Positions 8,165 to 10,083 of a stretch of DNA of 64,000 nucleotides are shown here, piece by piece. Location: positions 880,820 through 944,819 of the forward strand of contig NZ_NTGB01000001.1 of assembly GCF_003072505.1 (NCBI RefSeq). Reading direction: 5' to 3'. Position 1 is the first letter of the stretch. Every line of letters begins with the position of its first letter. The stretch is from Polynucleobacter rarus. Its GTDB lineage: Bacteria > Pseudomonadota > Gammaproteobacteria > Burkholderiales > Burkholderiaceae. The notes beneath the pieces were generated by a model that was not told where the DNA came from, did no database searches, and saw only the letters and a program-made list of their open reading frames with translations. The position numbers and the translations under genes are program-made.

Positions 8165-8195
8165 TCATAAAACTGATGCATGCAAGGATGTTAGT

Positions 8196-8294
8196 GGGAC
8201 GAGCCATACCCCCGGCACTATTGGGTAATGGGTTTGGCTGCTTCGTTCCCGACCTGACCAGATTGCCATGCCAATATGCGGGGAGGCCCGTCTT
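8196..8294 (-). ncRNA. ffs: Signal recognition particle 4.5S RNA (small bacterial type)
   Basis: RNA scaffold that binds Ffh and directs nascent membrane proteins to FtsY. On the minus strand the highly conserved Ffh-binding core is present: GGTCAGGTC, then GGAACGAAGCAGCC, which folds as the asymmetric-loop and GNAR-tetraloop hairpin. The ends pair to close the hairpin, GACGGGCC near 8285-8292 with GGCTCGTC near 8198-8205, and the lower stem continues through CCCCG/CGGGG. Size is about 97-99 nt. It lies between addA (convergent) and dnaX (divergent). Exact ends are estimated from the pairing. Confidence 0.95.
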
Positions 8295-8331: not shown

Positions 8332-10050
8332 ATGTCTGAATTTAATTTATTCGAAACGCCTTCTTCCCCTTCTCAAGCAGGATTAGCGCTAGCTAGAAAA
8401 TGGCGTCCTCGCGATTTTAGTACTTTGGTCGGTCAAGACCACGTTGTTAAAGCCCTAACGCATGCTTTAGACCAAAATCGACTCCATCATGCATGGCTCT
8501 TTACGGGTACGCGTGGTGTGGGTAAAACTACCATTTCCAGAATCCTAGCTAAATCATTAAATTGTGTGGGTACTTCAGATCACCCCGTGATTGCTCCGAC
8601 CTCAAAACCTTGCGGAACATGTTATGTGTGTCAAGAAATTGATGCCGGTAGGTTTGTTGATTATGTCGAGATGGACGCAGCGAGTAATCGCGGGGTTGAC
8701 GACATGGCAGCGTTACTGGAAAGATCTATCTACGGTCCGACGAGTGGGCGTTTTAAAGTGTTTATGATTGACGAAGTCCACATGCTAACCAATCATGCCT
8801 TTAATTCGATGTTAAAGACTTTGGAAGAGCCACCACCTCATCTCAAGTTTATCTTGGCAACGACCGATCCGCAAAAAATTCCCGTAACAGTCCTTTCTCG
8901 TTGCTTACAATTTAATTTGAAGCAAATGCCGTCCCCAATTATTGTTCAGCACTTACAAAGTATTTTAGAAAAAGAAGAAATCAGTGCTGAAGAAAAGGCT
9001 CTTCGAATCATTGCAAAATCCGCTCGTGGTTCGATGCGAGATGCCTTGTCTTTAACTGATCAAGCTATTGCTTATACTTCTGGAAGCATTACTGAAGAGT
9101 TAGTGCGTAATATGCTGGGCTCTCTTGATGATGCCTACTTAATTAGAATATTAGATGCCCTTGCCACTAATAATGGGCAGGAGTTGGTTGACATATCGAG
9201 AGAAATGGCAATCATGAGTATGTCTTTTTTGGTTGCCTTGCAAGATTTAGCATCTCTCTTGCAAAAAGTGGCAATGGCACAATTAATACCAAACTCGATA
9301 CTTCAAGAATGGCCAGAGGCAGAAGCTGTTCAAAAAATGGCCACTAGTTTTACTAAAGAAGAGGTTCAACTGCTTTATCAAATTGCCATAACTAGTCGGG
9401 CCGATTTACAAATGGCACCAGAAGAAGAGGTCGGGTTTTTAATGGCACTCTTGCGTATGTTAGCTTTTAAAGTGGATGATGGATCATTTAATGCAACTCC
9501 AACATCAAATCTGGCAGCTAGGGGGATAACTCCAAAGCTTCAAGAGCAAACTAAGCCAAGCATAGTAAAGCCCTTAAGTCCTGAGCCTCAAAAAAAAACT
9601 CTAGTTGAAAGTGCCGCAGCTCAAGATTCTAGTCCCATAACCAACACGAGTATTGCGGATCCTATTGAATGGCAAAATTTAGTTAAAAAATTACCATTAA
9701 AGGGTCTAGTTGGTCAATTTGCGTTGCAAACTGCTCTGAAATCTTGGCACGAACAACCTGACTCGATTAATCTGCACCTAACTAGCGAATTACCTCAGCT
9801 TGCAACCACATTTTCAATCGAAAAGTTAACTGAAGCACTTGAACACCATTTCAAGAGGTCCGTCAGAATGAAGGTAGATGTAGGAGTTTCAGAACATACT
9901 GTTGCAAAATTAGAAGCGAAAGTACAGGCTAGCGAGCAATTGGTTGTAGAAGCATCTTTGACAAAAGATCCTTATCTACAAGATTTACAAAATATTATTG
10001 GCGTCAAAGTAATTGAAGGTTCAATTAGACCTTTAAAAGAGAACAAGTAA
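8332..10050 (+). CDS. dnaX: DNA polymerase III tau/gamma subunit
   Basis: AAA+ subunit of the clamp loader, and as full-length tau the organiser of the replisome. Of 572 residues, the N-terminal 370 or so form the clamp-loader module: P-loop GTRGVGKTT (59-67), a four-cysteine zinc site around CGTCYVC, Walker B MIDEVHMLT, and the sensor I region LATTDPQKIPVTVLSRC. A proline/glutamine-rich linker and a tau-specific C-terminal domain follow. The linker is encoded across an A9 run at 9590-9598; both other frames stop within four codons, so a gamma-like product of about 424 residues is likely (E. coli gamma has 431). It heads a dnaX-ybaB-recR cluster. Confidence 0.97.
   Translation: MSEFNLFETPSSPSQAGLALARKWRPRDFSTLVGQDHVVKALTHALDQNRLHHAWLFTGTRGVGKTTISRILAKSLNCVGTSDHPVIAPTSKPCGTCYVCQEIDAGRFVDYVEMDAASNRGVDDMAALLERSIYGPTSGRFKVFMIDEVHMLTNHAFNSMLKTLEEPPPHLKFILATTDPQKIPVTVLSRCLQFNLKQMPSPIIVQHLQSILEKEEISAEEKALRIIAKSARGSMRDALSLTDQAIAYTSGSITEELVRNMLGSLDDAYLIRILDALATNNGQELVDISREMAIMSMSFLVALQDLASLLQKVAMAQLIPNSILQEWPEAEAVQKMATSFTKEEVQLLYQIAITSRADLQMAPEEEVGFLMALLRMLAFKVDDGSFNATPTSNLAARGITPKLQEQTKPSIVKPLSPEPQKKTLVESAAAQDSSPITNTSIADPIEWQNLVKKLPLKGLVGQFALQTALKSWHEQPDSINLHLTSELPQLATTFSIEKLTEALEHHFKRSVRMKVDVGVSEHTVAKLEAKVQASEQLVVEASLTKDPYLQDLQNIIGVKVIEGSIRPLKENK
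9590..9598 (+). promoter_or_regulatory. A9 slippery run in dnaX, candidate gamma-producing site
   Basis: Nine consecutive A residues are read CAA AAA AAA ACT in the tau frame. In the -1 frame the next codons are AAC TCT AGT TGA (stop 9606-9608); in the +1 frame they are CTC TAG (stop 9602-9604). Any slip on the run, ribosomal or transcriptional, therefore ends the protein at once near residue 424. A comparable A-run in Thermus dnaX works by transcriptional slippage, and E. coli uses -1 ribosomal frameshifting. No strong downstream stem-loop was seen by eye. Confidence 0.6.
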
Positions 10051-10083
10051 AATTTTCAAAACAAATAATTGAGGGAAATAGAG

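Follow-up and report, generated by a model that had tools for sequence, protein, structure and literature searches.

A run of nine adenines in dnaX of Polynucleobacter rarus as a candidate slippage site for a gamma-like protein

The dnaX gene of Polynucleobacter rarus, carried on the 64,000-nucleotide stretch of DNA analysed here (the window), contains a run of nine adenines (A9) in its coding sequence, which raises the question of whether this single gene gives rise to both the full-length tau protein and a shorter gamma-like protein by slippage at the run. A sequence-only reading of the window had proposed that it does, on account of the stop codons that follow the run in both alternative frames. 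Considerable dispute surrounded the role of gamma in Escherichia coli before it was settled (PMC5009743, in excerpt), and relatives that either carry or lack a likely gamma-making site would constitute a natural comparison for the part played by gamma in repair, mutation and replication.

The run of nine adenines and its predicted products

The features of the dnaX locus are collected in Table 1. A9 is located in frame in the part of the gene that separates the clamp-loader domains from the tau domain, and both other frames are closed by stops shortly after the run, as had been described in the sequence-only reading; the distances are two and three codons in the window, and two and three to five codons across the clade of closest relatives treated below. 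When the gene was translated with different run lengths, eight adenines gave a predicted product of 423 residues (46.7 kDa), ten adenines 425 residues (46.9 kDa), eleven adenines 424 residues, and the native nine adenines the tau form of 572 residues (63.2 kDa), in agreement with the truncation at about residue 424 that had been anticipated. According to the domain coordinates the short forms keep the clamp-loader domains and lose the polymerase-binding domain. The cut had been thought to fall at the end of the clamp-loader module, and the domains are indeed kept, but since residue 378 is the last of domain III and residue 446 the first of the tau domain, the cut is more properly placed in the linker, approximately 45 residues past domain III. 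Downstream from dnaX follow a ybaB-like and a recR-like ORF, both named as judged from their translations. A gene for small bacterial SRP RNA (RF00169, 65.6 bits) is present at 8195-8292 on the minus strand, divergent from dnaX.

Table 1 Features of the dnaX locus in the window.
Feature	Positions	Strand	Evidence or remark
dnaX, full-length tau form, 572 aa	8332..10050	+	TIGR02397 dnaX_nterm 1.5e-124; PF12170 tau domain V 3.5e-11
Clamp-loader ATPase domain, residues 34-199	8431..8928	+	PF13177
Gamma/tau domain III, residues 253-378; last domain retained in the short form	9088..9465	+	PF12169
Fast-evolving linker with the candidate slip site inside	9472..9666	+	Outside QKKT, 16/61 residues shared with the G043 ortholog
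CCTC upstream flank, NCT(C/G), common to most other A9-bearing dnaX genes examined	9586..9589	+	
A9 candidate slip site, CAA AAA AAA ACT (Q420 K K T)	9590..9598	+	
TAG, reached on losing one A or gaining two; predicted 423 or 424 aa	9602..9604	+	Stop at the same position in 4/4 clade members
TGA, reached on gaining one A or by a -1 ribosomal shift; predicted 425 aa	9606..9608	+	3 codons off in three members, 5 in G043
Tau domain V (alpha-binding), residues 446-560; missing from the short form	9667..10011	+	PF12170

The dnaX run is the single A9 on both strands of the window, where dinucleotide shuffles average 11.5, and the whole genome of 3.16 Mb holds 49 runs of at least nine A or T (53 overlapping matches). 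These numbers show that long runs are avoided and that the run in the window is unusual, not unique. Twenty-seven of the 49 runs are found inside ORFs of at least 100 aa, and 19 of these 27 have the adenines on the sense strand.

The sequence-only reading had taken the double stop as a sign of selection for truncation whichever direction the slip takes, and hence of transcriptional slippage. This argument carries little weight by itself. Across the 42 ORFs of the window, with 18,253 codon positions, the probability of finding a stop within two codons in one frame and within three codons in the other is 0.024, and both stops occur within three codons at 3 of the 27 coding runs of the genome, namely those of dnaX, L193 and L201. 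The double stop on its own is a modest excess and a weak sign of selection, and as a proof of a slip site it was dropped because it arises too commonly by chance. The two other loci are of some interest in themselves. L193 (G000:C1:2401691-2401700, G000 being the genome of the window) has ten adenines in an ORF of 171 aa made up of lysine/alanine/proline repeats, with both stops within two codons, and the aligned repeats of the related genome G043 are without the run. L201 (G000:C1:2870675-2870683) has nine adenines in a 159-aa ORF with other-frame stops one and three codons on, and no G043 ortholog of it was found among the matches searched.

Retention of the run within a Polynucleobacter clade

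In a survey of the genus, dnaX was recovered from 174 of 186 genomes at E <= 1e-50, and 64 loci were checked for A9. The run is present in all four members with a dnaX identity of 84% or more, that is G000 together with G173, G100 and G043 (protein identities to G000 of 96%, 95% and 84%, respectively), and on the dnaX tree these four species group as a single clade (100/99). It is absent from dnaX in the other 60 of the 64 loci examined, the next relatives being at most 66% identical. Conservation of run and stops in relatives, the check that had been suggested for this locus, is thus seen in 4/4 of the closest relatives and is absent from the 60 other genus loci. The linker scan of 135 distinct dnaX ORFs omitted L024 and L117, in which no linker motif was found; L024 was inspected separately and has no A9.

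G043 is the most distant member of the clade. Between G000 and G043 the synonymous sites are saturated (ps 0.74), and outside the QKKT residues the linker is 53% identical at the DNA level and 26% identical at the protein level. Across this distance G043 keeps the run, the preceding CT and the following CT, and carries TAA at the place of the TAG.

For comparison, the other runs of the genome were followed in the same pair, with control orthologs taken only from loci returned by the ortholog search. For 14 of the 26 remaining coding runs of G000 there is a G043 ortholog that covers the run, and one of them (L170, a T9) keeps nine; none of the 10 sense-strand A runs with a G043 ortholog keeps nine, as three to eight are left. 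DNA-level alignment to G043 showed that the runs of L171 (eight left) and L193 (in the repeat, at most six left) also fail to keep nine, and two of the 22 non-coding runs (L177 and L203) are retained. With 4/4 of the closest relatives carrying A9 in dnaX, and with this genome-wide control, the retention of the run exceeds the neutral expectation.

L170 (G000:C1:827413-827421) is located in a hydrophobic-looking ORF of 160 aa with 69% protein identity to G043. It is the sole other coding run of nine found retained, and it may represent a second slip site.

Recurrence in a family taken as Oxalobacteraceae and in a second family

One among 80 named loci collected by dnaX similarity, from a Burkholderiales MAG (L070, gene GC 58%), has CTC-A9-CTGA in the same linker, and a comparison of the L070 protein with the order (30 loci) revealed A9-CTGA in the dnaX genes L245 and L251, of 65% and 63% GC. 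L070, L245 and L251 belong to or group with a family, f8, that we take as Oxalobacteraceae because the dnaX tree places L071 (Oxalobacter sp.) within it (100/99). The 13-mer A9-CTGA occurs in 128 of 294 f8 genomes, and the reversed control in 32 genomes. When 131 of the 141 listed f8 places were examined, 104 proved to be dnaX sites read in the usual frame, spread over 104 genomes and 18 of the 44 genera sampled (the tally being 103 census places, L437 excluded, and the G582 gene, L251 and L327); one place was in an odd-frame dnaX copy (L437) and 26 were outside dnaX. In 190 of the 294 f8 genomes no A9-CTGA was shown in dnaX, a figure that refers to this 13-mer only and to 131 of the 141 places.

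The dnaX runs at these places all have exactly nine adenines, read in the frame xAA AAA AAA ACT, in genes of 46 to 72% GC (median 63%, with 76 of 103 at 60% GC or above). In the dnaX genes of the L278-L323 and L378-L456 sets (L278 being a partial dnaX with no linker) the bases before the run are CT in 100 of 103 and CG in the remaining three. The codon before the run encodes Ala, Pro, Thr or Ser, so the CT is kept whatever the amino acid, and this codon ends in T in 45/45 distinct genes, compared with 12% T-ending codons for the same amino acid in the rest of these genes.

Outside f8 the same element is found in dnaX of 2/10 genomes of family f50. In the rest of the order the 13-mer is present in 26 of 349 genomes, with two f8 and two f50 places as the only ones in dnaX; the other 22 places had no dnaX in the locus (four loci ended at contig ends). 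In family f1 the sequence CTSA9CT was detected in 7/200 genomes and in dnaX only for G000, and in the class CTSA9CTGA was detected in 2/185 genomes, in neither case in dnaX.

On the dnaX tree, in which the bootstrap is not settled and some branches are long, the A9 label needs 8 changes, of which at least five are forced, showing that A9 sites have come and gone. A single shared origin of the clade and f8 sites was considered and found unsupported, with A9 missing from 60/64 genus loci and only the G000 place in dnaX within f1; repeated losses from one shared origin may be an alternative. Since no such site is seen in most relatives (60/64 genus loci and 190/294 f8 genomes) gamma looks dispensable on this evolutionary scale. 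Collectively, these observations suggest a candidate dnaX slip site of a known kind of recoding, found in lineages for which searches of an open library gave no prior report and with an unexpectedly wide second home. They also suggest that a large pseudomonadotan family makes frequent use of Thermus-like slippage in dnaX, mostly in GC-rich genes where nine adenines stand out.

Is it the lysines or the nucleotides that are conserved? Two lysines in a row occur in the linker of 2/162 dnaX entries without A9, one of the two being an A8 (some entries are duplicates). When the amino acids and the codon usage of each gene are taken as given, the probability of the codon set CAA/GAA AAA AAA ACT in 41 A9 genes from other genera has a geometric mean of 0.0045, a value inflated by the fact that most of the 41 genes were found via the run; within the clade, where the genes are AT-rich, the corresponding probability is 0.13. 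The rarity of KK in the absence of A9 and the improbable codon set outside the genus point to conservation at the nucleotide level, and a protein-level need for KK was dropped because KK is nearly absent from linkers without the run.

Two dnaX copies in f8 deviate from the general pattern. In L437 (G1050, a MAG) the upstream frame encounters a TGA right after the run and the tau end is in another frame, which could reflect an error of sequencing or assembly, decay of the gene, or a reversed arrangement with tau dependent on the slip; this MAG carries a second dnaX, L438, in the usual frame. The linker of the dnaX gene L254 in the f8 genome G648 has an A8 (GAA AAA AAA GCA) whose stops are distant, 48 and 19 codons off, and may hold a decayed site.

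Probable transcriptional slippage, its rivals and known systems

The position of the stops and the surroundings of the run bear upon the mechanism. The stop in the frame reached by gaining an A is one codon past the run in 3/3 f8 genes found by protein similarity (L070, L245 and L251); in the genes found with the 13-mer the immediate gain-frame stop is there by construction. The stop in the frame reached by losing an A is located 3 to 111 codons away in f8. In the clade it is two codons off, compared with a linker background median of 8, and in 17/41 other genes, which are related and not independent, it is found within six codons, compared with 15% in the linker background. The heptamer in the A9 dnaX genes is A_AAA_AAA, in frame, and A_AAA_AAG was absent from the linkers scanned, those of 135 distinct dnaX ORFs and of 30 order loci.

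Upstream pairing and downstream structure were calculated for 103 of the 104 f8 entries, L437 not having been deliberately removed. A strong Shine-Dalgarno-like element was seen in 0/45 distinct genes (duplex energy of -7 or below) and in 4/103 entries (-6 or below). The mean upstream anti-Shine-Dalgarno pairing is slightly stronger than in the control, -2.94 vs -2.64 for the 45 genes and -2.79 vs -2.27 for the 103 entries. Downstream hairpins show no excess (z 0.03 vs -0.08 for the 45 genes and -0.27 vs -0.35 for the 103 entries). In the window itself the upstream duplex energy is -1.9 and the downstream structure has z 0.73, so that neither a Shine-Dalgarno-like stimulator nor a stem-loop is recognized there. 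With no strong Shine-Dalgarno-like element and no hairpin above background, the run is the only signal found, and it is mainly the lack of any such element standing out that makes transcriptional slippage likelier than a ribosomal shift.

What the analysis shows is the sequence itself, the retention of the run relative to the controls, its recurrence in another family, and the lack of a ribosomal stimulator above background. The original proposal of a slip site yielding a gamma form by transcription survives in part, with respect to recoding, supported by clade retention, the control and the f8 recurrence, while the double-stop argument from which it started is weak alone. With guarded confidence we favour the explanation that A9 is a Thermus-type transcriptional slippage site and that gamma is made beside tau. 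RNA polymerase transcribing the T9 template would sometimes add or drop an A when the RNA:DNA hybrid is all A:T. Messengers with nine (or twelve) adenines would be translated into tau, and those with eight, ten or eleven would meet TAG or TGA after three codons at most, yielding a gamma-like form of 423-425 aa, which would contain the ATPase and collar domains and no polymerase-binding domain. Copying into RNA thus probably slips now and then at the dnaX A9, and by analogy with Thermus this one gene very likely encodes two replication proteins, tau and a gamma-like one. From these comparisons we infer that slippage takes place in living cells, mainly during transcription, and that the resulting gamma is put to use.

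Programmed -1 ribosomal frameshifting at A_AAA_AAA could also yield gamma, without strong stimulators and with the gain-frame stop serving the shifted ribosome. The A9 dnaX genes have the heptamer in their reading frame, where it is able to shift a ribosome, approximately 61% of heptamers need no stimulator to shift in E. coli (PMC4066793, in excerpt), the UGA in the -1 frame of f8 comes one codon on as in the E. coli layout (PMC5009743, in excerpt), and the slightly elevated upstream pairing is in the direction expected. We nevertheless regard frameshifting, although a serious rival, as the less likely explanation, because no strong Shine-Dalgarno-like element or hairpin rises above background, because A_AAA_AAG, the stronger heptamer in E. 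coli according to the excerpted text of PMC5009743, is unseen in the scanned linkers, and because the loss-frame stops are also nearer than background and nine adenines are retained, not seven. In an E. coli in vitro system, the excerpt of PMC4363877 reports little ribosome sliding or truncated product on A9 or A10.

The run could also be incidental, a chance A9 in a lysine-containing linker that has not yet been lost, followed by fortuitous stops and giving at most a wasteful truncated protein. A double stop found at 2.4% of positions and at 3/27 coding runs is not rare, the run is known in four Polynucleobacter species only, the clade codon set is not improbable given the amino acids, and L170 (coding) and L177 and L203 (non-coding) were also retained in G043. 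It is difficult to reconcile chance with the preservation of nine adenines in G043 at saturated divergence, when 0/10 other sense A9 runs with an ortholog keep nine and when the rest of the linker is 26% identical, or with the reappearance of the run at this linker in both f8 and f50, and we consider this explanation improbable.

A DNA-level contingency (phase-variation) tract would profit from the tendency of long homopolymers to mutate by replication slippage and would fit the L437 copy, where the upstream frame ends right at the run, but it is very improbable in view of the exactly nine adenines in 104/104 f8 census places (in frame in 103) and in 45 distinct genes, as counted in searches blind to A8 alleles. 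Equally remote is a role of the A-tract as a promoter upstream element for the ybaB- and recR-like ORFs that follow dnaX, or another DNA-level role, as no promoter was found near the run, the one promoter-like site being at 10026-10053 (shuffle mean 1.9), and as such a role gives no reason for the stop that directly follows the run in the -1 frame of the f8 genes.

Returning to transcriptional slippage, one property of the sites goes beyond it. The upstream CT is accounted for by neither transcriptional slippage nor ribosomal frameshifting, and a simple slippage model does not require it. Tentatively, and with more doubt than confidence, we propose that gamma has been gained and lost repeatedly in the Burkholderiales by means of a compact cis element, (CT)(C/G)-A9-CT(GA), for which no RNA structure is needed. 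Such a minimal slip cassette, with flanks tuning the RNA polymerase at the all-A:T hybrid, would have had separate origins in the Polynucleobacter clade, in Oxalobacteraceae and in f50.

In listings of an open library we found no report of dnaX recoding for Polynucleobacter or Oxalobacteraceae; within the open library, co-mention of dnaX and Polynucleobacter was confined to a Euplotes topic, and dnaX and Oxalobacteraceae were not mentioned together. Ribosomal frameshifting in dnaX is described for Escherichia, Salmonella, Neisseria and Vibrio, and slippage for Thermus, with candidates including Chlorobium and Chloroherpeton (PMC3711429, PMC1088944 and PMC5009743, all in excerpt). In E. coli dnaX, A_AAA_AAG is combined with an upstream Shine-Dalgarno sequence and a downstream stem-loop (PMC3711429 and PMC5009743, in excerpt). 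The sites described here share with E. coli the gene, the logic of obtaining gamma from tau, a comparable place of the cut and, in f8, a -1-frame stop one codon on; they differ from E. coli, as portrayed in these excerpts, in that neither stimulator stands out and in the heptamer. Poly-A is also a feature of the two-ORF dnaX genes identified by GeneTack, where 12/17 have such a run (A7 to A10) and transcriptional realignment was proposed (PMC3711429, in excerpt). Unlike that set, in which tau needs the slip, tau is here the zero-frame product, apart from L437, which is possibly reversed or an assembly error.

Baranov and colleagues pointed out that truncating slippage sites are hard to judge comparatively since no extensive new coding sequence is made (PMC1088944, in excerpt). 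In the present case the saturated linker and the GC-rich relatives supply the comparative contrast. The closest parallel is the dnaX gene of Thermus thermophilus, in which slippage occurs on nine adenines with stops in both frames (PMC1088944 and PMC5009743, in excerpt). As in these accounts, there are nine adenines in frame late in dnaX, close stops in both other frames and a predicted short form without the C-terminal part of tau. Thermus belongs to another phylum, and in contrast to Thermus the f8 context is usually (CT)(C/G)-A9-CTGA, with one stop only at a fixed place.
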